From assembly GCA_019894655.1 (NCBI GenBank), contig JAGXNZ010000082.1:1-9718 (forward strand): a stretch of 9,718 nt of DNA, written 5' to 3'. Source of the stretch: Promethearchaeota archaeon (GTDB lineage Archaea > Asgardarchaeota > Lokiarchaeia > Sigynarchaeales > SOKP01). Made by a program: the position numbers and the translations under genes. Below, piece by piece: positions 1 through 9,718 of this stretch. Within the stretch, counting starts at the first letter, position 1; each line of letters opens with the position of its first letter. The notes under the pieces are model-generated. The model searched no databases and was not told the DNA's origin. It saw nothing but the letters and a program-made list of their open reading frames with translations.

Positions 1-2
1 AT

Positions 3-380
3 GAACATAAAACTCAATTAAAAAAATTAGGACACGATTTTTTGAGAGAGATGAAAAATTACGGCTTAAAGGATGTTTGTATTACATCGTTTGATCTTTC
101 GCCTATAATGACCCTCGGAAAAATATACTCATTCAACGATATCCACGAGATTTTAAGAAATATTGGAAATGTTCCAGAAATTCCGCCATTAAATTGGGTT
201 TATCGCCAATCTTCACACGATGGTGAGCAAATATGGGTCTACATCTATAAATCGGATGTAGGTCCAACTATCGAAGGCTTATTTGAACCTTACCTTTATT
301 TGCTTTTTTGCGATCTTAACTCCTACCTTGGAGAAATACCCGAAGTTCTTGGAAATAAAATTAATAGGATTTTAAGCTAA
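3..380 (+). CDS. 3' end of an unrecognised gene, truncated by the left window edge
   Basis: The reading frame is open from the first complete codon at base 3 to the TAA at 378-380, giving 125 residues. The residues before the first ATG (base 51) read as ordinary protein (EHKTQLKKLGHDFLRE), and no Shine-Dalgarno precedes that ATG or the TTG at 42. The gene therefore probably starts outside the window, and this is its C-terminal part. The visible portion is soluble and mixed alpha/beta. It has an aromatic-rich centre (PPLNWVYRQSS, EQIWVYIYKSD) and a hydrophobic stretch, YLYLLFCDL, near the end that is too short and polar-flanked for a membrane helix. I do not recognise the family and assign no function. 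It could also be a complete 110-residue protein starting at base 51. It converges with the minus-strand gene at 415-639, leaving a 34-base gap without a clear T-tract. Confidence 0.7.
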   Translation, partial: EHKTQLKKLGHDFLREMKNYGLKDVCITSFDLSPIMTLGKIYSFNDIHEILRNIGNVPEIPPLNWVYRQSSHDGEQIWVYIYKSDVGPTIEGLFEPYLYLLFCDLNSYLGEIPEVLGNKINRILS

Positions 381-414
381 ATAGAATCATTTTGGGATGA
401 AATTGGTATTGGAA

Positions 415-639
415 CTAAACCACATTTTCTGAAATGTTTTTTAAAAATTTAGAAATTGGATATGCTTCAATTTCTCCGTTGTTCAAGTAACTTTCTAAAT
501 TTTCCTTTAATTCGGCTTTAAATTCGCCATCATTTTTAGCAACGATCCTGCTAAACGGATAGTTCTGAATTTTGCCTTCCTTAGGCATGCACCATAATAC
601 TATTACGAAATATCTTAATAAATTTGAGGAATTTAACAT
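415..639 (-). CDS. small unrecognised protein (74 residues)
   Basis: This minus-strand reading frame has codon use like its neighbours and a protein-like composition. A short beta-like hydrophobic segment (LRYFVIVLWCMP, about residues 8-19) is followed by KEGKIQNYPFSRIVAK and then an acidic/basic amphipathic helix (EFKAELKENLESYL, about residues 39-52), ending in AYPISKFLKNISENVV. No competing plus-strand gene covers these bases. The start is uncertain: the ATG at 639 has no Shine-Dalgarno and could be leaderless, while an internal ATG at 588 would give 57 residues and lose the first strand. The hydrophobic segment is short and probably a core strand rather than a membrane helix. I do not recognise the family. 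It reads tail-to-tail with the gene ending at 380 and head-to-head with the gene starting at 880, so it is its own transcription unit. Confidence 0.55.
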   Translation of the reverse strand: MLNSSNLLRYFVIVLWCMPKEGKIQNYPFSRIVAKNDGEFKAELKENLESYLNNGEIEAYPISKFLKNISENVV

Positions 640-773
640 AATTTTAAAGAAAAAGGTAGCTAAAAGAACACTGTATTTCTTGAATGAGGATTTAATAGAA
701 GCCTTAAATCTTAATACTTAACCAGAAACAATTTTTCAGTTTCAGCTTAAACATTCTACGCTCGTTTTGACAA

Positions 774-797
774 TAATGTAAAATATTAAATAAAATA
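774..797 (+). promoter_or_regulatory. candidate TATA region for the DUF3303-like gene
   Basis: An uninterrupted A/T stretch (AAAATATTAAATAAAATAT) lies 80-105 bases before the ATG at 880, in the divergent gap between the minus-strand gene and the 880 gene. In archaea the TATA box sits about 25 bases before the transcription start, which would put the start near 815-825 and give a leader of about 60 bases. The exact box cannot be fixed because the whole stretch is A/T. Apart from this element and the two palindromes that follow it, I see nothing definable in the 640-865 interval. Confidence 0.35.
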
Positions 798-815
798 TGT
801 GAATATTGAATCACA
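798..815. repeat. interrupted palindrome TGTGA-N8-TCACA, possible operator
   Basis: TGTGA at 798-802 is the exact reverse complement of TCACA at 811-815, separated by 8 bases. It lies directly downstream of the TATA-like stretch, where archaeal repressors often bind. The arms are only 5 bp, so chance is not excluded. The interest comes from a second palindrome with the same 8-base spacer starting two bases further on. Confidence 0.4.
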
Positions 816-817
816 CG

Positions 818-837
818 GTATAGGTTAATGACTATAC
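818..837. repeat. interrupted palindrome GTATAG-N8-CTATAC, possible operator or leader hairpin
   Basis: GTATAG at 818-823 and CTATAC at 832-837 are perfect 6-bp inverted arms with an 8-base spacer. The site lies in the probable 5' leader or at the transcription start of the gene beginning at 880. It could be a dyad operator for a dimeric regulator or a weak RNA hairpin. Its arms differ in sequence from those of the palindrome at 798-815. Confidence 0.4.
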
Positions 838-865
838 AGATGCAAATCCAAAACAAATAGTTTGT

Positions 866-872
866 AGGTGAT
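866..872 (+). promoter_or_regulatory. ribosome binding site that fixes the start at 880
   Basis: AGGTGAT is a 7-base complement to the conserved archaeal 16S rRNA 3' end, and it lies 7 bases before the ATG at 880. The in-frame GTG at 868 lies inside this site and is therefore not the start codon. Confidence 0.8.
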
Positions 873-879
873 AAGTAAA

Positions 880-1191
880 ATGTTGTTTATATCGTATTGG
901 GAATTAAACCCAGATTTTGATCCATCAGAATTAGCTGAAATTGCACAAAAACTAATGAGTAAGAAACTATACCCTGTTGAAGGAGTTAAACAATTAGGTT
1001 TTTATATTAGTGCATCGGATTTTTGGGGAATTAGTATAGACGAGGCTGAAAGTGTAGAACAAATGGCAAAAGGGACAAACATATGGAGACTTGCTAAACC
1101 AGGCTACATTAGGCTTGTAAAAACTACTCCGGCAATGGAAGTTATTCAAATTGTTCCCTTATTAATGAAATTAAAAAAACAGCTAGATTAA
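880..1191 (+). CDS. DUF3303-like small alpha/beta protein (103 residues)
   Basis: The start at ATG 880 is chosen because a strong AGGTGAT ribosome binding site lies 7 bases upstream and because the N-terminus MLFISYWELNP matches the way DUF3303-type proteins begin (a first beta strand, MLFxVxWxxxP). The rest follows the expected order: a helix (SELAEIAQKLMSKK, about 16-29), a strand around GVKQLGFYIS (35-44), the pattern FWGISIDEAESVEQMAKG (48-65; a strand, then a helix that begins with acidic residues), a strand around YIRLVKTTPA (76-85), and a closing helix. This is a ferredoxin-like dimeric alpha-beta barrel layout. Proteins of this group have no established biochemical role, and no catalytic residues are evident. 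The assignment is by pattern and is moderately sure. It is followed by a T14 tract and then by the DUF362 gene 95 bases downstream, so the two are probably transcribed separately. Confidence 0.8.
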   Translation: MLFISYWELNPDFDPSELAEIAQKLMSKKLYPVEGVKQLGFYISASDFWGISIDEAESVEQMAKGTNIWRLAKPGYIRLVKTTPAMEVIQIVPLLMKLKKQLD

Positions 1192-1211
1192 CGAATACTT
1201 CTAAATTTTAA

Positions 1212-1225
1212 TTTTTTTTTTTTTT
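1212..1225 (+). terminator. T14 tract, archaeal-type terminator
   Basis: Fourteen consecutive T residues begin 21 bases after the stop codon of the gene ending at 1191. No GC hairpin precedes them. U-tracts of this kind serve as terminators in archaea, where the polymerase and the FttA/aCPSF1 nuclease act on U-rich RNA. Confidence 0.7.
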
Positions 1226-1276
1226 AATTAACTGGCAAATTTTATTTGTTGACATACATTTTGTCATCTACTATAT

Positions 1277-1283
1277 GGTGGAT
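1277..1283 (+). promoter_or_regulatory. ribosome binding site deciding the DUF362 start
   Basis: GGTGGAT lies a few bases before the ATG at 1287 and resembles the archaeal GGTGAT signal. It overlaps an earlier in-frame ATG at 1275. Choosing 1287 gives MAKVAVISTK, the usual beginning of DUF362 proteins. The 1275 start would add only MVDT. Confidence 0.55.
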
Positions 1284-1286
1284 ACT

Positions 1287-2165
1287 ATGGCTAAAGTTGC
1301 TGTTATTTCTACAAAAGATCGCGTGTATGGAGTAAATAAATCCTTCGAGTTATTAGGAATAAATCCTGTTAAGGGCAAAGACGTAATTTTCAAACCAAAT
1401 TTCAATACTGCGGATCCTCCTCCGGCGTCAAGCTCAATGGAGACAATTAAGCAGCTTATTATAAAGTTAAAAGAAATGGGAGCGAAATCAATAACTGTCG
1501 CTGAACGAAGCGGACCCGCTAAAACTTCGGATGTTTTTGAAAAAAAGGGCTTGAATTCGTTGGCAAAAGAATTGGATTTTACGATCGTTGACTTAACAAG
1601 AATACCCAGAGATGATTATGTCCTCAAAAAACCAGATGGTAGTCATTGGAGAGATGGATTCTTTTTTGCGAAGATATACGATGAAGCGGAGTGTATTATA
1701 GAAACATGTTGTTTAAAGACTCATATGTATGGTGGACACTTTACTTTATCGCTTAAGAATGCTGTAGGGATAGTCAAAAAGAAAAACATGTCAGAATTAC
1801 ATTCCTCGGAACATCAGAGAGATATGATCGCAGAAATAAATTCGGTTTATAAACCTGACTTAATCGTTATGGACGGCGTTATTACTTTTGTAGATCGAGG
1901 ACCTATGGAAGGAACTCGAGTAGAAGGGGATGTTTTCGTTGCGGGCACAGACAAAATTGCACTCGACGCTGTAGGTGTGGCAATATTGAGAATCTTGGGG
2001 ACTACACCAGAGGTTACCAGGGGTCCTATTTTTGAACAAGATCAAATTAAAAGAGCCGTTGAATTAGGTTTAGGGGTTACATCACCCCTGGATATTGAAT
2101 TTTTAACTGATTCTGAAGAAAGTGAGAAGTTGGTTGCTCAAATAAAAGAGAAATTGGCACAATAA
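1287..2165 (+). CDS. DUF362 domain protein (292 residues)
   Basis: The sequence follows the DUF362 pattern throughout: an N-terminal strand MAKVAVIS, KPNFN at 36-40, a helix preceding GAKSITVAERSGP (65-77), the central CCLKTHMYGG and LSLKNAVGIV motifs (141-163) with conserved Lys144-Thr-His146 and Lys157-Asn158, a histidine pair (LHSSEH, 171-176), PDLIVMDG (190-197), GPMEG (205-209), and the closing GTDKIALDAVG (220-230). The length fits the domain alone. The C-terminal 4Fe-4S ferredoxin module of some family members is absent, and Cys136, Cys141 and Cys142 do not form a CxxCxxC cluster motif. The protein is predicted to be cytoplasmic, with no signal or membrane segment. DUF362 has no generally agreed reaction, so none is assigned here. 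A few members of the domain are associated with iron-sulfur proteins. The gene is monocistronic by appearance: a T-tract lies before it and an inverted repeat after it. Confidence 0.92.
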   Translation: MAKVAVISTKDRVYGVNKSFELLGINPVKGKDVIFKPNFNTADPPPASSSMETIKQLIIKLKEMGAKSITVAERSGPAKTSDVFEKKGLNSLAKELDFTIVDLTRIPRDDYVLKKPDGSHWRDGFFFAKIYDEAECIIETCCLKTHMYGGHFTLSLKNAVGIVKKKNMSELHSSEHQRDMIAEINSVYKPDLIVMDGVITFVDRGPMEGTRVEGDVFVAGTDKIALDAVGVAILRILGTTPEVTRGPIFEQDQIKRAVELGLGVTSPLDIEFLTDSEESEKLVAQIKEKLAQ

Positions 2166-2175
2166 TCACTTTTTA

Positions 2176-2204
2176 AAAAGAGTTTCTTTATCAATAACTC
2201 TTTT
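2176..2204 (+). terminator. 9-bp inverted repeat after the DUF362 gene, possible terminator hairpin
   Basis: AAAAGAGTT (2176-2184) and AACTCTTTT (2196-2204) are perfect reverse complements with an 11-base loop, beginning 10 bases after the stop codon. The right arm ends in TTTT, giving a weak hairpin plus short T-run. The stem is A/T-rich and archaea do not generally depend on hairpin terminators, so it may instead stabilise the 3' end of the mRNA. Confidence 0.4.
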
Positions 2205-2306
2205 AACCCGCCGAATAAGTAAGAATAGATTAATCGATATAAATAATACACCTAATGAATAAATTAAAACTAAATTCCTTAAAATATTGCCAAAGAAGAT
2301 TTCAAT

Positions 2307-2350
2307 AATTTTTATACGATTAAAAATACGATTAAAATTTTTATACGATT
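2307..2350 (+). repeat. direct repeats containing ATACGATT, promoter or operator cluster
   Basis: A 15-base sequence, AATTTTTATACGATT, occurs at 2307-2321 and again at 2336-2350. In addition the 12-mer ATACGATTAAAA is in exact tandem at 2314-2325 and 2326-2337. The core ATACGATT therefore occurs three times in 37 bases (2314, 2326, 2343), about 80-115 bases before the winged-helix gene. The TTTTTATAC part resembles an archaeal TATA box, so the cluster may be a duplicated promoter, an operator for the downstream regulator itself, or both. The remainder of the 2205-2430 gap shows no other recognisable element. Confidence 0.5.
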
Positions 2351-2430
2351 GCTACTTCTAATAACTCTAATCGAAGTTTAATAAATCAAGATGTAATAAA
2401 CAATATTATTTTTCTTTAAATGATCTGACC

Positions 2431-2943
2431 ATGACATCTGAAAATAATAAAGAAAATTCTCAGAAACCTCGTATTAAAGAAAAGGGAATACCATCAGTTA
2501 AAAAAATTGAAACCTTAAATCGAGATAAGTTAGTTAGCAATTTAACTGGCCGAACTCTTATGATATACTTCGTTCTTCTAAATAAAAAGTCGATAGGCGT
2601 CCGCGAATTACAACGACACTTGGATCTTTCAAGTCCCAGTGTAGCTAAATATCATTTAGAGAAATTGGTTAATTTACACCTCGCTGAAAACAGGAACGGG
2701 ATCTACCATCTTGGTAAAAAAGCAGATTTACCATTATTAACTTCGTGGGTGTTATTGGGCAAATACTTGTTCCCTAAAGTTTTATTTGCTGCCATTTTAT
2801 TTACATCTCTTTTTATTGGTTATTTACTCTTCATTTACTCTTATTGGAATAAGGATAGTATGTTTTTTATTTTATTTGGATTAATATTGATGGTTTATAT
2901 CTGGTTTGAAGTAATTATACAATTCAAACAAAAGCCAATTTAA
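2431..2943 (+). CDS. winged-helix DNA-binding protein with two C-terminal membrane helices
   Basis: This 170-residue protein starts with a polar, lysine-rich tail (1-35). A winged helix-turn-helix follows at about 38-95: LTGRTLMIYFVLLNKKSIGV, then the helix-turn-helix VRELQRHLDLSSPSVAKYHLEKL (57-79), and the wing, ENRNGIYHLG. This is the ArsR/MarR-like fold in which SSPSVAKYHL is the recognition helix. Two hydrophobic segments follow (about 114-137 and 143-165) and should be membrane helices, with the DNA-binding part in the cytoplasm. The family role is membrane-tethered transcription regulation; the signal and target genes are unknown. No Shine-Dalgarno precedes the ATG. A TATA-like CAATATTATT about 26 bases upstream would allow a leaderless transcript. 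A repeat cluster at 2307-2350 suggests autoregulation. It lies 140 bases upstream of the A2M gene on the same strand, which makes that gene a candidate target by inference only. Confidence 0.88.
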   Translation: MTSENNKENSQKPRIKEKGIPSVKKIETLNRDKLVSNLTGRTLMIYFVLLNKKSIGVRELQRHLDLSSPSVAKYHLEKLVNLHLAENRNGIYHLGKKADLPLLTSWVLLGKYLFPKVLFAAILFTSLFIGYLLFIYSYWNKDSMFFILFGLILMVYIWFEVIIQFKQKPI

Positions 2944-2988
2944 CAAAATCGTTCACTTTCATGATTAAAAAAGGTTGTGTTCTTCGAT

Positions 2989-3025
2989 TTTTTATACTGT
3001 TCTAAACTTTAGTATATTAAATTTA
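2989..3025 (+). promoter_or_regulatory. candidate promoter of the A2M gene
   Basis: Two TATA-like elements lie in the 140-base gap before the A2M gene: TTTTTATAC at 2989-2997 and AGTATATTAAATTT at 3011-3024. The second would place transcription initiation near 3045-3050 and a leader of about 35-40 bases. The first repeats the nonamer found twice in the cluster upstream of the winged-helix gene. The upstream gene has no strong T-tract after it, so some read-through is possible. Confidence 0.4.
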
Positions 3026-3070
3026 CATCACCTAATGCAATGTAATAACCAAATTTTGTTTCTTCTTCAC

Positions 3071-3074
3071 GAGG
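3071..3074 (+). promoter_or_regulatory. ribosome binding site of the A2M gene
   Basis: GAGG sits 9 bases before the ATG at 3084. It supports this start, which also places a clean signal peptide at the N-terminus. Confidence 0.5.
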
Positions 3075-3083
3075 CATTTTAAA

Positions 3084-6000
3084 ATGAACAAATCAAGAAA
3101 AGCATGCTTATTTCTATTGATTATTTGTCTTCAGACCCTTTTGATGGGATTTAATGTAGTGATCGGTAAATCAACTCACGTTATTCAGCCAGAAGATTTT
3201 AAGGGAATTCCCCCTAAAAATGGAGGTGAATCCCATTCATCTCCTTTTTATTTCCCTACTAATCAATCAACTCCTCTGATGACAGAAGAGATATTTAGTG
3301 ATGATATAGAGGATATTCCCAAACAATCGTCTTATGACTATATTAATGATTATGTATTAACTCTTAATCTTGATAAATACGTTCTTACCCCTGGAGAAGG
3401 AATTTCTATTAATCTGGCTTTATCCCACAATTTAGAAGCTTCGGTTGGTCAGATCGTAACGATAGAAATTTACGAAGCATTTTATCGAGATTTTCGTTGG
3501 TATGATCCAGAATATTACGACGGTATGGTTCCTATATATACTACAGAGGTAATTACAGATAACTCAGGTCAAGCTTCCTTAGGATTTTCTTCTACTTCAA
3601 AAACGGGGATTTACACGGTTTATGCTTATATTGAAAATTGTAAATCGTATAATGAATTTACAGTAGGTGAAATTGGTATTTTTTGTAAGGGACCAATGTA
3701 TTTTAAACCAGATCATCAATACACTGCTGCTGTTCACGTTGTGAACATAAGCGATTTTTCTGGTCTCCCATTAAGCACTTTTAATTATTCTCTTTCGTTT
3801 TACGATTATTCAATTTCAAATTGGATTCTCTTAACATCTGACCAGGTTCAGACGGACGATTTAGGTTATGGGATATTTAACGCAGACATTCCTTTGGACG
3901 GAAATAATTATCACATGCTCAAGTTATCTTTGGTCACTTCCAGCGGTGAAGCTAAATATGAAACTTATTTGTACAAATCATGGGATTATTATTATTATTC
4001 ATTATGGGGGGGAGAAAAGCAAACTGTTCAAGAAAAAATGCAATATGTAGTAACTACTGATAAGACAATTTATTCGCCAGGCGAGTCCATCAATTTACGA
4101 GCATTAGTGTTAGAATATTCGTTTATGAATGAAAGTAAGCGAGTTTCTAAAGATGCATCTATCTCCTTAACGATTTACAATCCTGACGACCTTGCTATAT
4201 TCTGGACATCTTTAATCACCGACGAACATGGGATCATTACTTACACATTACCTTTAGACGAAGATTGTGAATTAGGGTATTATGGATTCGAATTTGGAGA
4301 CTCTAATGGTAAATATAGATACAATGTCAAAGTAAGTTTTTACACAAAACCAGTTTTTAGAGTAGAAATTAACACGAATGGAAAGGATTATTATTCCATA
4401 TTAGATAAATATTTTGAAGGATATGTATATGTTTCATATTATTTTGGACAACCAGTTGTAGGAGCTTCTGTAGAACTCACCATTTATGATTATCAGGGTC
4501 AAATCAAAAAAACTATACAAGGATATACAAACGGAGAAGGAAAATTTCACTTTTCAATAAACATCTTTTTCATAAGCGATTTACAGTACTCTTTTAGCGC
4601 TCAAGCTGATGTCGTAGACACTTACGGGAGAAGCGCTTCTATTAAAGGGGCTTATTCTCGGATCGAAACCTTATATGCTTATGGATATTTATCGAATTGG
4701 GCACCTCATCCTGAAGAATATTCGGAATATTATTTCTACGTGTATCAGTATATTATGTCAGATTTAAATTATTGGTATGGGTATTGGAACTATAATCCTC
4801 TTGCAAATGTTTCAGTTAATATAGAAATTTACGGGATAAAAGGCTATCCACTCTTCAGATCTTTAATAGCGAATAGAGATTTGTTGGCTACATATTCAGC
4901 AAAAACTAATATCTATGGATCGGGTAAATTAGAGTTTAAATTACCGATGAATATTATTAAGCACTATGATCTCTTTGAAATTAGATTGAACATCAATCTT
5001 GAAGATAAACGATCCGATACATCGTCGTACTACTATCGTTACAAGAAATATAGTCTGGATGTAAATATAACAGATGTTACCCTAAATCCAGGTCAAACAT
5101 TAGAATTCGATGTGTCATACAAAGATATATTAACAGATTCTCCTTCTGAAGGAGAGGGAATTATATACATTTATGATTCTAATCATCAATTGATAGGTCG
5201 AGCGGATGATATGATTACCGGAACCAAAACCTATCACCTTACAATTCCTAACTTCTCACCAGAGGGGCTCTATTACATCTATTCTTCTGTATACTCGCGT
5301 TCAAATGACTACTATGGCGGATTTAGTTATCACTCTGCACATAAGTCGTTTAGAGTCGGTACATCCCAATCGATAACTTTTACAACTAACTATACCAATA
5401 CTGGTAAATATTACGATGAAATCGAAGTTAAACTAGGTGATGTTATCAGGATTGAGGGATATACTAATGTTACTGCTAACCTCCCCCTATACATAGAAAT
5501 TTACAAACGAGGTCTTATTTACTCGGGTCTCTTGGAAGTAGACGATAATCAATTTTTGTATAATCTTCCAGTGATCGCTGACTACGCACCAGATTTTACA
5601 GTAATAATATATACTATATCTAATTCAGGAAAACTCTATGAAAGCGTACTGTCCGTTCATGTCGAATATTCTTACAGTTTTGATTTATCAACTGACAAAG
5701 AAATTTACGAACCAGGTGATTCGATAACATTAACGATAAGTCCCTCTGAAAATCAAACTTCGATCTTCGCCATCTCATTCATAGATAGTGCTGTTCTTGA
5801 TGTTGAACCAGAAGACGATTCTGAATTAGGGTATTTTACAACGAATAGCTACTCAACGTATATAAGTTCGGGTAGTTCTTGGGGTTCTGGCTTTGACATA
5901 AGCAGTTATTGGTGGTTTTGGTGTGGAACTCCAAGAGGAGGGATTTTTATCCAAGAAGGTCAGCTTTCTGCAGTTCCCAGAGGCGATAATTTTTTCGCAT

Positions 6001-9000
6001 TTGGACTGGAAACGCTCCTGCCCCCTTCCATACCCTCTTTTGAAGATCTTCTTAAAGATTTTGATACCGAAATTAGAAAAAACATCTCTGAGTCAGCAAA
6101 TTGGATGCCAAAGATGATTATATCTGAGCCTACAAACATAACATTTAAACTACCCGATAATATAGGCGAATGGACAATTCGAGTCGTAGGAAGCTCTCTT
6201 TCTGACAATATTAACAATGTTGTACTTGGAGGTGCTGTGGAATCAATCCAGATCAAAACATTTTTACCCTTTTTTGTTGAATTTGACCTACCACAATCCA
6301 TTGCTCAGGATGATATTTTAAGCGTAAAAGGATATGTTTACAATTATATTGGGGAGGATGTTCAAGCTTATGTGGCAATTAGTGCCCCTAACTTAATTAT
6401 ATTGAACAACGATGTCCAACAGATTACAATTCCTAACGCATTCGTTTCTGAAGTAGAATTTTCCGTGTACTGTAAAGAACCCTACCTTCAGAATATTACT
6501 CTTTTAGCCGCTACCGATGTCAATGGAATACATCATTCCGACGCTAAACAATTGACTGCTTATATCAAACCGAACGGCATTGAAGTTACCTATAGGACGA
6601 TAGGATTCTTAAATGCTTCAGATGGAACTACCCTTCTTAATTTTACTTTGGATCCCCTAGCAATATACCACAAGAGCACATTAGCTCTATACACTGACTT
6701 GATGGACATTTCAATCGATAGCTGGAACTCTTTAATTGGATATCCCTATGGTTGTATCGAACAAACAATTTCCAAACTTCTTCCAACAGCGCTCATATTT
6801 CAATATCTTAATCAAACGGGACAACTTACTCCAACCTTAGAAAAGAAGATAACCTTAATGGTTTTAGAAGGTATTTCCCGTATCTACAACTTTCAACATC
6901 ACGACGGTGGTTGGGGATGGTGGCGATCTGACGGTTCTAAAATCATTATGACTGCTATTGTTGTATCGGCATTAAGCCAGATTGAAGAGACTGGCTTTTA
7001 CATCAACCCCAATGTGATTAAAAGAGGCATAGATTATCTCATCGCCAATCAACATACTAATGGTGGATGGGATTTTCAAGAATATTCTTCAAATACACTG
7101 GAAGCTACGGCTTATGTGCTTAAAGCCTTACTAAATTCTCAAAATATCACTCCTGAGCTTGAAGTGAGCATTGATATGGCTATAAACAGATTTGTTGTGT
7201 TATGGAATGCGGGAGAAATGAATAGCGCCTATGCTGCATCTCTTTTCTATGTTGCTACAGTGGGAAGTTCATTCGAAAATTCTACACTTAACAACATATT
7301 AATTCAATACATAAAGGATAATAAAAAAATAGAAGCGAACACTGTTTATTGGGATAGCGACCAAGAAAGCGTTTGGTACTGGCGAAAGCTAGGGAATGAA
7401 GTGGAAATTACAGCTTATGCTATTTGGGCTCTCGCAATTGACGATTTCATCGACAACTATGCTATTATTCAAAAAGCTGTTCGATATTTAATGAATGAAA
7501 GGAGTCGCTGGGGATGGAAGACTACCGCAGATACAGCAGCGGCGATTTCTGTTCTAACATCAATTAAAAAAATCGCAACAACTTGGGGATTTATAGACTT
7601 TAACGGCACCGTGTCGGTTAATATTAACGATGCTTATCCTTCTCAATACAATTTAAACCTCACAGATGAATCTAATCATCCTAACGAAATTCAATTAACT
7701 TTAAGTGAATTTGTTACCGTCGGTTTCAATAGCATTAACATAACTTTAAACGGAATCGGACAAATTTGCTATATTCTGGAGAATACCCAAATTTTGCGTT
7801 CAAACCCCACTGTTGAAGTTCCTGGCACAATTGAGGTGTCAAAGAATGATAATTTCTATTTACCGGTAAAGTTCTTAAACATTGATGGAAGAATGCCTAT
7901 TGTTGATTCAGAAATATCTTTAATTAATGTTCCTTTAGCACTCATAAATTCTAATGAAAATTATGTTGCTAATGTACCCTACATCACTAATGGAAGCGAA
8001 TTAGTATTTTCATTAATTTCTCCCGATGTTCCAGGTAATTACTATATTGAAAGTGTGTCTGTTTCTGGTTATGTTCAATTCATAGGCACTCCAAATAAGT
8101 CTTTAGATTATCAACTGTTCCAACGCACGATAGGTCCAATCGTGATAACTGTGAACGATGAATTGCCTTCTTCCTCATCTACTTCGCTCAAAGCGAAACT
8201 GGATCTTTTGTTTGGAGGAATCCTGAAATCATCTTCAAATAGTTCTGAAATGTTAACCGTAACAAAGGAACTCTCTAAACACACTTATTTATTGCCTGGA
8301 GACATCATTACAACTACTATAACAATATCAAATGATGGGGAGGCTCGCCAATTTTACGTCCTTGAGGACAATTTGCCTACGGGAACGCTATTTTTATCAG
8401 ATACCGTTGAGATATTGAATCTTAATAGTTCAGAAATCACTTACGATCTTTATTCATCAGGGATTCACTTTTTCTTTCCTATACTTCCTACTGGTACTTC
8501 GAAAATCACCTACCAATTACAAGTAGACTCAATTAAAAACTCATATTCTGGTTATTGTAGACTCTGGGGAATGTATGACGACATAAACATCATTAGTCAA
8601 TCGGTTTCGCTGGAAAATATCCCTCGCAAATATTACTCCAACCATTCTATATATCAAGATTTAATAAAACCAACATACTCTGGTATTGAAATTACTCAAG
8701 ATGACTTAAGTTCAATGATAGAGATACTAATTACTGTCATGGCACAAGATATAAATGGTATTTCTAAAATTCGTGTGGTTTTTTCGCAAAACTCCGGTTG
8801 GCGGGCTCGAACTCTTTATTCATCGCAAAATCAAGAAATATTTTCTTTGAGGGTGGCTGATTTTGATAACATTGATTCAGAAGTTAAGATTTTCTTGGAA
8901 ATCTATGATAGTTATGGTAACATTGCAACAACCAGTATAAGAACTATAAAAGTCATTGAAGTGATTCCCTATTTAATAATTGGGGCAATACTCGGTTTTT

Positions 9001-9149
9001 CAATTGGATTAGCGAGTCTGATGTCGTTTTTCTCGAAAAAACAAATAGATAAAAAGCGAGTAAACCAAGCAAAAATAATCAAAAAGAGCGAACATAAGAC
9101 CTCATTTTTAGATATAGCAAACAGTCCTGAAAACGATTCCGAAAATTAA
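3084..9149 (+). CDS. secreted, membrane-anchored alpha-2-macroglobulin family protein with intact thioester motif
   Basis: The 2021-residue protein starts with a signal peptide (basic MNKSRK, hydrophobic 7-27). Macroglobulin-type beta domains carry the hallmark DKxxYxPG at Asp97 (LDKYVLTPGEG), Asp326 (TDKTIYSPGES; MG2) and Asp871 (TDKEIYEPGDS), with an MG3-like domain from about 422 (YFGQPVVGASVELTIYD). A bait-like stretch (about 917-995) precedes the A2M domain (996-1085: IRKNISESANWMP with Trp1007, FKLPDNIGEWTIRVVG, FFVEFDLP). The thioester domain (about 1198-1500) has YPYGCIEQ with Cys1224 and Gln1227 and GGW-type helical repeats (DGGWGWW 1274-1280, NGGWDF 1326-1331, RWGWKTTADTAAA near 1476). 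CUB-like and further beta domains follow, then a DUF11-like domain from about 1720 (NDGEARQFYVLEDNLPTG), one more beta domain, a membrane helix (1960-1983) and a basic tail. Known A2Ms trap proteases after bait cleavage or bond covalently to targets; either role is inferred here. About 25 N-x-S/T sequons fit an extracellular glycoprotein. It lies downstream of a membrane winged-helix gene and ends at a T-rich tract. Confidence 0.95.
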   Translation: MNKSRKACLFLLIICLQTLLMGFNVVIGKSTHVIQPEDFKGIPPKNGGESHSSPFYFPTNQSTPLMTEEIFSDDIEDIPKQSSYDYINDYVLTLNLDKYVLTPGEGISINLALSHNLEASVGQIVTIEIYEAFYRDFRWYDPEYYDGMVPIYTTEVITDNSGQASLGFSSTSKTGIYTVYAYIENCKSYNEFTVGEIGIFCKGPMYFKPDHQYTAAVHVVNISDFSGLPLSTFNYSLSFYDYSISNWILLTSDQVQTDDLGYGIFNADIPLDGNNYHMLKLSLVTSSGEAKYETYLYKSWDYYYYSLWGGEKQTVQEKMQYVVTTDKTIYSPGESINLRALVLEYSFMNESKRVSKDASISLTIYNPDDLAIFWTSLITDEHGIITYTLPLDEDCELGYYGFEFGDSNGKYRYNVKVSFYTKPVFRVEINTNGKDYYSILDKYFEGYVYVSYYFGQPVVGASVELTIYDYQGQIKKTIQGYTNGEGKFHFSINIFFISDLQYSFSAQADVVDTYGRSASIKGAYSRIETLYAYGYLSNWAPHPEEYSEYYFYVYQYIMSDLNYWYGYWNYNPLANVSVNIEIYGIKGYPLFRSLIANRDLLATYSAKTNIYGSGKLEFKLPMNIIKHYDLFEIRLNINLEDKRSDTSSYYYRYKKYSLDVNITDVTLNPGQTLEFDVSYKDILTDSPSEGEGIIYIYDSNHQLIGRADDMITGTKTYHLTIPNFSPEGLYYIYSSVYSRSNDYYGGFSYHSAHKSFRVGTSQSITFTTNYTNTGKYYDEIEVKLGDVIRIEGYTNVTANLPLYIEIYKRGLIYSGLLEVDDNQFLYNLPVIADYAPDFTVIIYTISNSGKLYESVLSVHVEYSYSFDLSTDKEIYEPGDSITLTISPSENQTSIFAISFIDSAVLDVEPEDDSELGYFTTNSYSTYISSGSSWGSGFDISSYWWFWCGTPRGGIFIQEGQLSAVPRGDNFFAFGLETLLPPSIPSFEDLLKDFDTEIRKNISESANWMPKMIISEPTNITFKLPDNIGEWTIRVVGSSLSDNINNVVLGGAVESIQIKTFLPFFVEFDLPQSIAQDDILSVKGYVYNYIGEDVQAYVAISAPNLIILNNDVQQITIPNAFVSEVEFSVYCKEPYLQNITLLAATDVNGIHHSDAKQLTAYIKPNGIEVTYRTIGFLNASDGTTLLNFTLDPLAIYHKSTLALYTDLMDISIDSWNSLIGYPYGCIEQTISKLLPTALIFQYLNQTGQLTPTLEKKITLMVLEGISRIYNFQHHDGGWGWWRSDGSKIIMTAIVVSALSQIEETGFYINPNVIKRGIDYLIANQHTNGGWDFQEYSSNTLEATAYVLKALLNSQNITPELEVSIDMAINRFVVLWNAGEMNSAYAASLFYVATVGSSFENSTLNNILIQYIKDNKKIEANTVYWDSDQESVWYWRKLGNEVEITAYAIWALAIDDFIDNYAIIQKAVRYLMNERSRWGWKTTADTAAAISVLTSIKKIATTWGFIDFNGTVSVNINDAYPSQYNLNLTDESNHPNEIQLTLSEFVTVGFNSINITLNGIGQICYILENTQILRSNPTVEVPGTIEVSKNDNFYLPVKFLNIDGRMPIVDSEISLINVPLALINSNENYVANVPYITNGSELVFSLISPDVPGNYYIESVSVSGYVQFIGTPNKSLDYQLFQRTIGPIVITVNDELPSSSSTSLKAKLDLLFGGILKSSSNSSEMLTVTKELSKHTYLLPGDIITTTITISNDGEARQFYVLEDNLPTGTLFLSDTVEILNLNSSEITYDLYSSGIHFFFPILPTGTSKITYQLQVDSIKNSYSGYCRLWGMYDDINIISQSVSLENIPRKYYSNHSIYQDLIKPTYSGIEITQDDLSSMIEILITVMAQDINGISKIRVVFSQNSGWRARTLYSSQNQEIFSLRVADFDNIDSEVKIFLEIYDSYGNIATTSIRTIKVIEVIPYLIIGAILGFSIGLASLMSFFSKKQIDKKRVNQAKIIKKSEHKTSFLDIANSPENDSEN
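4006..4012 (+). repeat. G7 homopolymer inside the A2M gene
   Basis: Seven consecutive G residues encode part of Trp308-Gly309-Gly310, right after an ATT-repeat stretch coding for Tyr302-305. It stands out in AT-rich DNA. Loss of one G would shift translation into a frame that stops at 4048-4050 and leave a product of about 320 residues, so the tract is a possible slippage site. Confidence 0.6.
6750..6764 (+). other. thioester motif GCIEQ of the A2M protein
   Basis: Codons for Gly1223-Cys1224-Ile1225-Glu1226-Gln1227 lie in the context YPYGCIEQTISKLLP. In the A2M/complement family the Cys thiol and the Gln carboxamide form an internal beta-cysteinyl-gamma-glutamyl thioester. Both required residues are present. 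The preceding Tyr-Pro-Tyr and following Thr resemble bacterial-type members (YPYGCxEQT) more than the vertebrate PxGCGEQNM form. Confidence 0.92.
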
Positions 9150-9165
9150 TTTCTTTTTTTTCTTC
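9150..9165 (+). terminator. T-rich terminator after the A2M gene
   Basis: A stretch of T broken only by C (including eight T in a row at 9154-9161) begins immediately after the stop codon. It fits archaeal U-tract termination. Confidence 0.55.
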
Positions 9166-9200
9166 AGATCTTCAACGAAATTTCTAATTAGTCTAGTTAG

Positions 9201-9239
9201 TATAGATAGCGATCTATATAGAGACTTTTTTTATAGATC
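9201..9239 (+). repeat. three mutually pairing elements forming alternative hairpins
   Basis: TATAGAT (9201-9207) pairs perfectly with ATCTATA (9212-9218) around a 4-base loop. The same middle element, as GATCTATA (9211-9218), is also the exact reverse complement of TATAGATC (9232-9239). The second pairing encloses a T7 run (9226-9232, sharing its last T with the arm). The stems are weak and A/T-rich. The arrangement could act as a back-up terminator after the A2M gene, a mutually exclusive RNA switch if transcribed, or repeated protein-binding sites. It lies upstream of the probable promoter of the next gene, so it more likely belongs to the A2M 3' end. Confidence 0.4.
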
Positions 9240-9251
9240 TGAACACTTATT

Positions 9252-9302
9252 TTTATATATCAGATTCACTAATAGTAATTTGTCAAAAGAACAAATTTTT
9301 AT
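9252..9302 (+). promoter_or_regulatory. candidate promoter of the right-edge secreted-protein gene
   Basis: Two TATA-like elements, TTTATATAT (9252-9260) and AATTTTTAT (9294-9302), lie 50-95 bases before the ATG at 9349. The second matches the first nine bases of the 15-base repeat found upstream of the winged-helix gene. It would give a leader of about 20-25 bases that includes the ribosome binding site at 9337-9340. Confidence 0.4.
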
Positions 9303-9336
9303 CTTGATATTGGATTTGAAACTATAATGGTATCTT

Positions 9337-9340
9337 AGGG
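9337..9340 (+). promoter_or_regulatory. ribosome binding site of the right-edge gene
   Basis: AGGG lies 8 bases before the ATG at 9349, and the start it supports opens directly into a signal peptide. Confidence 0.45.
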
Positions 9341-9348
9341 AATCAAAA

Positions 9349-9718
9349 ATGGTGAAGAATAAAAGAAGATTATCATATATTAGGCAAATGGCTATTCTTT
9401 CTGTTATTTTAATTGTTATTGGAAACATTTCAAGTTTTCAATCGAATTTAATTGTTCTAGATGATTTCAATCAAGAACCGCTTAATAAACCTATAGATGA
9501 TTCTTTAGATAAGCATTTAAGTTTGCCTTTTCCTGGTGTACCTGATGATGCGGGAGGTTATTCTTCAATAAATGCCGCTAACTTCAACATTATTGAAAAT
9601 GCCTCCAGTTTAGAATTTAATAGAGATTATCTAGCAAATGAAAGTAGTTATTTTGACATTACTACACCCCAAACATGGAATATCACATCAATGCAGTTTG
9701 ATCTCGACCCTTATTCAA
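9349..9718 (+). CDS. N-terminal part of a secreted protein, truncated by the right window edge
   Basis: From ATG 9349 the frame stays open to the last base, giving 123 codons with no stop. The N-terminus is a signal peptide: basic MVKNKRRLSYIRQ, then a hydrophobic core, MAILSVILIVIG (14-25), then a polar region. The mature part is acidic and polar, with LPFPGVPDDAGGYSS at about 59-73 and several N-x-S/T sequons (for example NAS, NES, NIT). It ends in TTPQTWNITSMQFDLDPYS, which looks like the start of an extracellular beta domain. I do not recognise a family in the visible part. The short mature-region segment rich in Pro and Gly is similar in style to the N-terminus of the A2M protein, and it is transcribed in the same direction about 200 bases downstream, so it may be another cell-surface protein of the same locus. 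Codon use does not differ visibly from its neighbours. Confidence 0.8.
   Translation, partial: MVKNKRRLSYIRQMAILSVILIVIGNISSFQSNLIVLDDFNQEPLNKPIDDSLDKHLSLPFPGVPDDAGGYSSINAANFNIIENASSLEFNRDYLANESSYFDITTPQTWNITSMQFDLDPYS

Follow-up and report, generated by a model that had tools for sequence, protein, structure and literature searches.

What does a thioester-containing alpha-2-macroglobulin (A2M) do in an archaeon, how is its gene controlled, and does it tell us where the thioester proteins of animals came from? These questions are raised by a 9,718-nucleotide stretch of DNA from a Promethearchaeota archaeon (assembly GCA_019894655.1, contig JAGXNZ010000082.1, positions 1 to 9,718; hereafter the window), in which the open reading frame (ORF) at 3084..9149 was recognized in a first-pass annotation as an A2M-family protein. 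That observation is confirmed here and well supported. The reading that we favour, with a probability of roughly 0.6, is that the protein is a cell-surface covalent trap triggered by proteases, under the control of its own regulator and operator, and that regulator and trap form an accessory cassette. New here are the operator-like element before the A2M gene, the regulator gene paired with it, and the accessory-cassette nature of the pair; the first-pass annotation had mentioned neither the element nor the regulator. The regulator gene, the element and the A2M gene with all its parts lie on the forward strand.

The host is an Asgard archaeon, as had been suspected, because the DUF362 gene upstream (1275-2165) is 93-94% identical to its orthologues in four Asgard genomes (G143, G144, G147 and G152) and the closest relatives of the A2M are Asgard proteins as well: among the matches listed, the nearest two are 91% and 85% identical, the latter being named Candidatus Lokiarchaeota. 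The names attached to close homologues disagree (Lokiarchaeota, Hermodarchaeota and Thorarchaeota), and we use ‘Loki-type’ and ‘Hod-type’ as working labels for two groups of A2M loci. Homologues were taken from two protein searches (the best 120 of 232 matches in the first, the best 120 of 3716 in the second) and related loci from the best 80 of 493 relatives. P0001 is the window's own protein read from a later start codon, and P0002-P0082 are treated as the Asgard group; many of these are nameless, and the names given are all Asgard except for one ‘marine sediment metagenome’. The score drops from 470 bits to 244 bits at the first match after the group, whose members include proteins of Promethearchaeum syntrophicum (P0031) and Candidatus Lokiarchaeum ossiferum (P0037).

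The ORF starts with ATG and encodes 2021 residues. It carries the domain series of the superfamily, MG2-MG3-BRD-A2M-TED, in order and with all five members above the curated Pfam cut-off, namely: MG2 (residues 322-417, 66 bits) and MG3 (420-494, 26.2 bits) at 4047..4565; the A2M bait region domain, BRD (753-906, 43 bits), at 5340..5801; the A2M domain (1015-1098, 41.4 bits) at 6126..6377; and the thioester domain, TED (1204-1492, 118 bits to TED_complement), at 6693..7559. MG2, MG3 and the bait region domain are thereby added to the A2M and thioester domains that the first-pass annotation had named. Its claim of an intact thioester motif also stands, since GCIEQ is found at residues 1223-1227 (6750..6764), with the thioester residues Cys1224 and Gln1227 inside it. 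GCxEQ is kept in all 65 full-length Asgard homologues (P0002-P0082 longer than 1900 residues, among the matches listed), down to about 25% overall identity, and the bond between Cys1224 and Gln1227 probably forms. Ahead of MG2, the AlphaFold 2 (AF2) model md0b3bf4f9413 contains two beta-sandwich domains (residues ~90-194 and 197-298; 3351..3977), one of which is presumably MG1. Towards the C-terminus, an MG8/MG10-like domain (1724-1815; 8253..8528) is assigned from matches below the Pfam cut-off (DUF11, 19.6 bits; bMG10, 18.4 bits) and from the structural alignment of TEP1, which extends through model residue 1054; the receptor-binding MG8 domain PF07677 was not matched in the Pfam search of the protein.

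The combination of signal peptide and C-terminal membrane helix that had been described is found as well. Residues 1-28 (3084..3167) form an N-terminal secretory signal, recognized from the hydrophobicity of the homologues, with its cleavage site judged by eye. An N-terminal hydrophobic stretch is present in 64 of the 65 full-length Asgard homologues; a lipobox-like pattern occurs in two of the 65, and by eye none is present in the window protein. At the other end, a hydrophobic stretch at residues ~1963-1982 (8970..9029) is seen by the Kyte-Doolittle scale in the database copy of the window protein and in the 91% relative, and the AF2 model has a helix at 1963-1988. It is followed by a charged, presumably cytosolic tail of 39 residues (9030..9146), in which the sequence SFLD (2007-2010; 9102-9113) is conserved among Loki-type proteins. 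Using a mean hydrophobicity of at least 1.6 over 19 residues within the last 110 as the measure of an anchor, such a stretch is found in 65/65 full-length Asgard homologues, among the matches listed, and in 1 of 145 comparison proteins, some of which are partial (1/37 for P0084-P0120 and 0/108 for P0242-P0353 minus four animal proteins). The C-terminal anchor marks the Asgard clade and is not unique to it, since P0120, the single exception, has one too. Anchor and motif are not due to chance, because both are kept in all 65 full-length Asgard homologues.

Between BRD and the A2M domain, residues ~951-1000 (5934..6083) form a putative bait region, recognized by its position, low conservation and modelled disorder; it is variable and would be exposed and open to cleavage. 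When the window protein is compared with 44 Loki-type homologues, the identity of residues 961-1000 is 0.34, whereas the nearby blocks 881-920 and 1001-1040 reach 0.73 and 0.78, respectively. Flanked by conserved blocks, 961-1000 is the least conserved 40-residue block within residues 41-1600, and it shows insertions and gaps among the Loki-type proteins. The predicted model is disordered at 901-981. Identity is also low at the N-terminus (1-40), across the linker 1681-1720 and in the tail.

The resemblance to human CD109 that had been proposed is borne out by sequence and structure. CD109 (PDB 8s3o, 9fx2) is the best PDB match by sequence, followed by A2M and TEP1, with the A2Ms of E. coli and Salmonella far lower; it is also the best Foldseek match of residues 790-1989 (E 3e-33, TMq 0.49), and the structure searches place the fold of this C-terminal part with CD109, A2ML1, A2M and TEP1. 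For the N-terminal half of the model, ECAM 5a42 comes first by Foldseek E-value, at a low TM-score (0.18); for the C-terminal part, bacterial ECAM is missing from the best 50 Foldseek rows and from the 50 rows listed for the VIA-align structural alignment, which does not amount to an exclusion. CD109 and the window protein are both attached to the membrane at the C-terminus. CD109 is held there by a glycosylphosphatidylinositol (GPI) anchor, whereas the window protein has a membrane helix with a charged tail that does not read as a GPI signal. CD109 has one beta-sandwich domain before MG2, in contrast to the two in our model, which by our reading also contains an extra beta-rich segment before the MG8-like domain. 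The ECAM/YfhM type (E. coli b2520) shares the A2M core and GCxEQ. Unlike it, the window protein has no N-terminal lipobox, is anchored C-terminally and belongs to a separate clade (100/100), so that the distinction drawn earlier from the lipoprotein-anchored bacterial type stands; in addition, pbpC adjoins yfhM, whereas no pbpC-like gene is found among the window ORFs. Insect TEP1 (PDB 4d94, 4lnv, 2pn5) is soluble, in contrast to the membrane-anchored window protein.

Just upstream of the A2M gene, at 2431..2943, lies a gene for a winged-helix protein of 170 residues with two C-terminal membrane helices, which locus conservation and the genome search lead us to predict as a membrane-tethered regulator of A2M. 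Pfam returns only weak helix-turn-helix matches for it, below the cut-off. The gene is present in all seven Loki-type loci compared (the window, L001, L117, L118, L126, L128 and L129), upstream of A2M and on the same strand, with homologues 47-65% identical to the window copy. It directly adjoins A2M in five of the seven, one opposite-strand gene intervening in L128 and L129, and it adjoins A2M in L142 as well. Across 227 Asgard genomes, a profile of 29 Asgard rows finds the long-type A2M in 18, complete or nearly so in 15 and partial in G051, G112 and G046. Regulator matches above 270 bits occur in exactly seven of the 227 (G114, G091, G089, G087, G088, G001 and G112), and each of these genomes also carries the long A2M. 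That of G112 is in pieces in the assembly (L142, G112:C425:11944-14401), with the regulator frame and upstream element intact. The next regulator matches, at 123-138 bits, come from nine genomes, all with a Hod-type long A2M; those of 118 bits or less are mostly in genomes without one. It should be noted that these searches scored up to 15 first-pass candidates per genome for the regulator and up to two for A2M, and absences are therefore soft.

Between the two genes, 85 nt before the A2M start, we find a conserved operator-like element, GTTCTAAACTTTAGTATA (2999..3016), identified by the locus scan and genome-wide searches. It consists of a CTAAA-C-TTTAG palindrome beside a TATA-like stretch, and takes the form GTTCTAWWCYKTAGKATA in Loki-type and GTTCTAATRCTTGGTAT in Hod-type loci, with one common layout. 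Its first base lies ~65-99 nt before the likely A2M start codons, the starts being chosen by signal peptides; the longest ORF of several Hod-type loci starts within or just past the element. A possible second half-site, TGTTCT (2978..2983), 20 nt before the main site, is tentative; by eye, it occurs as a direct copy in Loki-type loci and in an inverted, TTAGAACA-like form in Hod-type loci. The exact class form of the element is present in 15 of the 19 A2M loci scanned (not in L128, L129, L144 and L002) or, per genome, at A2M in 14 of 18, across two deep lineages. Within the 18 A2M-bearing genomes, the 18-mer TGTTCTAANNNTTRGTAT has nine matches, all at A2M, while its reversed control has three. 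Over all 227 genomes, the GTTCTAATRCTTGGTAT form has nine matches, at A2M only, and the Loki form with up to one mismatch has seven matches in seven genomes, five of them at A2M (control, four). A looser 17-mer gives 39 matches, i.e. 10 at A2M, one elsewhere in G001 and 28 in genomes without a long A2M; the matches away from A2M are no more than expected by chance, because the reversed 17-mer gives 80 (our own table count). G049, G051 and G112, which played no part in defining the patterns, likewise carry the element at A2M. In G001, a further exact copy (C1:265186) lies within an ORF and was set aside as a chance occurrence, and G088:C16:252753 matches the element with one mismatch. The element could be partly core promoter; that one half extends beyond the TATA-like stretch argues for a candidate protein-binding site rather than a promoter alone, and the winged-helix protein is predicted to bind it.

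Regulator and A2M together form an accessory cassette that is absent from a syntenic relative. A contig of G152 (L162) matches the window at 3-583 (82%), 581-2156 (91%) and 9246-9718 (82%), with an extra 3.7 kb between the first two segments, and has in place of the two genes 1150 bp unmatched to the window, in which two small ORFs are seen by eye. Neither a long A2M nor a close regulator orthologue is found in G143, G144, G147 or G152; G147 has one weaker regulator paralogue. Gain and loss are indistinguishable, and no flanking repeats that would explain the cassette were found around the pair.

The computed domain series, motif, anchor, variable bait position, gene pairing, conserved element and empty site are the starting point for the mechanism that we propose. 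The A2M would be exported by its signal peptide and held in the membrane by the C-terminal helix, spring-loaded and facing outwards. A foreign protease would cut the disordered bait stretch (~951-1000), proteases being the trigger that we infer, and the cut molecule would collapse and bare the Cys1224-Gln1227 thioester. The thioester would then form a covalent link with the protease, or with the surface that bears it, and hold the target at the cell. The membrane-tethered winged-helix protein would bind the palindromic element and control A2M, with both genes kept or lost together as one cassette.

Several observations weigh against this proposal. The thioester is a prediction from sequence and modelled structure. 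In the phmmer alignment, the Asgard TED lacks the 8-residue stretch of CD109 that holds VIH, whose histidine has a role in the thioester chemistry of C3-like proteins; because this stretch is missing, the chemistry of the Asgard TED may differ from theirs. No exact element is found at A2M in G087, G088, G046 and G002. The regulator homologue of Hod-type genomes lies away from A2M and the wider family is broad (110/227 genomes at E 1e-10), and the link between regulator and A2M is therefore weak in these genomes. The recognition helix was considered as a discriminator and rejected, being conserved alike in regulators with and without A2M. Finally, the distribution of the A2M, at 18 of 227 genomes, is patchy, within the softness of absences noted above, and the protein is therefore not essential.

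The tail bears on an alternative in which the protein is a surface sensor, cleavage of the bait being relayed via the helix and the SFLD tail to the winged-helix protein and changing A2M transcription. The tail motif [SNT]F[LIVST][DEGN], of which SFLD is the window's version, occurs in the last 75 residues of 39/44 Loki-type and 0/21 non-Loki proteins, compared to 105/1100 control pieces of equal length from Loki-type proteins, and the Loki type is the lineage in which the regulator gene is adjacent or nearly so. Most non-Loki tails have only a few residues; those of P0067, P0070, P0077 and P0078 are long yet without the motif. The position of the element before A2M would also suit a sensor, as would the anti-sigma-like zf-HC2 domain (PF13490) of one GCFEQ-type A2M (P0284, discussed with the tree below). 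A proposed contact between tail and neighbouring membrane regulator would be compatible with the motif, but since the tail motif and the gene linkage both belong to the same single clade, their correlation may go back to one event; we consider the relay unlikely. Its fullest form, a two-gene sensor of surface proteolysis in which the anchored thioester protein would signal through its tail to a winged-helix factor acting on essentially one operator, is put forward as a tentative and rather doubtful conjecture.

The anchored position at the surface would equally serve a covalent adhesin or opsonin, not very specific for proteases, that bonds the cell to surfaces, to viruses or to partner cells, and Gram-positive bacteria do use thioester domains for adhesion. 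We know of no such adhesin built on an A2M scaffold, whereas the window protein retains the full scaffold together with a variable bait stretch, which makes this explanation quite improbable. That the evidence consists of sequence and predicted structure would also accommodate a structural surface protein whose thioester is unformed or unused; set against the retention of GCxEQ in every full-length homologue even at the lowest identities, this strikes us as very improbable. A protease-triggered trap with its own regulator is the reading that we retain.

For the origin of the protein, we built an unrooted tree from ~585 residues around GCxEQ (73 rows, 529 columns), in which long branches and uneven composition are flagged. 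It contains 16 of 29 prepared Asgard-long rows, six short Asgard, two DPANN-like, eight animal and five GCFEQ rows; 37 of 158 rows labelled bacterial were used (14 loci of named organisms, 22 mostly nameless database proteins and YfhM), one of them being GCFEQ. Protists and Halobacteria are not included, and P0335 (an animal protein lacking the motif) and L135 (short type without GCxEQ) were omitted. The Asgard-long A2Ms form one clade at 100/100, the short Asgard type a second at 99/92 and the animal A2Ms a third at 100/100. The animal proteins join the five GCFEQ proteins at 100/98, and a further 100/98 branch separates Asgard, DPANN-like, animal and GCFEQ rows together from the 36 other rows labelled bacterial; the branch dividing the three archaeal types from the remaining rows is supported at only 51/42. 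The GCFEQ type is treated as bacterial because relatives of P0242, at 34-44% identity, are found in three genomes whose loci bear the title Planctomycetia or Planctomycetota. Forcing Asgard-long and animal A2Ms together is 21.5 log units worse and is not rejected by the approximately unbiased (AU) test (p-AU 0.076), while a group that unites animals with every archaeal type and leaves out the GCFEQ type is rejected (p-AU 0.0035), this grouping having been named after the tree was seen.

A recent transfer from bacteria is unsupported by this tree, in which the Asgard-long clade stands apart; the nesting inside a recent bacterial clade that had been proposed as a refutation is not what we find. 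An Asgard origin of animal thioester proteins, on which the locus had been suggested to bear, is likewise unsupported, given the position of the animals beside the GCFEQ type and the AU tests. An earlier 47-row tree (16 rows then labelled bacterial) had placed Asgard, animals and P0083 opposite the other 15. P0083 later proved to be DPANN-like, and adding the GCFEQ type moved the animals beside it; taken alone, the 47-row tree is misleading because it lacks that type. Our reading is that the Asgard A2Ms probably represent an old archaeal lineage rather than a recent bacterial import, and they do not emerge as the parent of the animal proteins. A plasmid search for haloarchaeal A2Ms gave six matching records, none archaeal, and a phage search for A2M only one partial match.

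The first-pass annotation had also regarded the family as mostly described in animals and bacteria. Archaeal A2M homologues with CxEQ have already been published: the main text of that survey describes 27 proteins from 24 genomes, including Halobacteria and Methanomicrobia, typically with a signal peptide and, for the haloarchaeal genes, with a regulator (arCOG02808) alongside (PMC8416519). In these features they resemble the window protein. No Asgard group is named there: the terms ‘Asgard’, ‘Lokiarch’, ‘Heimdall’ and ‘Thorarch’ are absent from its main text, supplements excluded (PMC8416519), and no title on Asgard A2M was found in the literature searched.

Other A2Ms came to light in the same searches. 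The GCFEQ-type proteins P0242, P0256, P0263, P0273 and P0284 are the nearest sampled relatives of the animal A2Ms; four have the animal-type A2M_recep domain, and four, all except P0242, have no bait-region domain in Pfam. P0083 is 78% identical to P0241 (named Candidatus Parvarchaeota) and has two membrane helices at ~674-719, near the expected bait position. The short Asgard A2M, with no visible signal peptide, is encoded at L130:2431-7359, L131:7983-12935, L132:8313-13280 and L136:494-5275. Between BRD and A2M domain, i.e. at the bait position, it contains the N-terminal ~50-60 residues of an actin (Pfam Actin position 5 to 54-59, at E 3.1e-7 in L130, 2.5e-6 in L131 and 8.8e-9 in L132; in L136 by alignment). 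Two or three genes downstream, after VWA or TPR genes, lies an actin of 298-308 residues that starts near actin position 57-65. From its sequence, actin looks split between the short A2M and the downstream gene, and no report of a split actin in Asgard was found in the literature searched. Whole-profile matches to the short A2M occur in 4/227 Asgard genomes, three of which have a separate actin match; in most of the other genomes, the insert on its own matches ordinary actins. A short-type A2M without GCxEQ, at L135:6261-11141, is found in G002, a genome that also has the long type.

Among neighbouring genes, the window ends (9349-9718) with the start of a secreted-looking protein, which also flanks the empty site of G152. 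In Hod-type loci, DNA polymerase B (cluster c1) occurs in eight loci and directly before A2M in seven; a functional tie was considered and set aside in favour of synteny of related genomes. An actin-like gene of 383 residues (cluster c2) lies on the opposite strand, ~5 kb away from the Hod-type A2M, in L119, L121, L124 and L125, perhaps also only by synteny.

Animal innate immunity relies centrally on A2M and complement proteins, whose early evolution has yet to be settled. The present findings indicate that anchoring in the membrane at the C-terminus extends beyond animal A2Ms, and they correct a tempting inference, in that the sampled tree gives Asgard A2Ms no source role for the animal ones. 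The conserved clade includes Promethearchaeum syntrophicum and Candidatus Lokiarchaeum ossiferum, both of which are in culture, and its chemistry is thereby testable on real cells. The main added value lies in the regulator-operator pair, which is a specific and testable prediction. Were the two-gene sensor true, Asgard archaea would possess a complement-like defence that is dedicated and inducible and is encoded by an accessory cassette.

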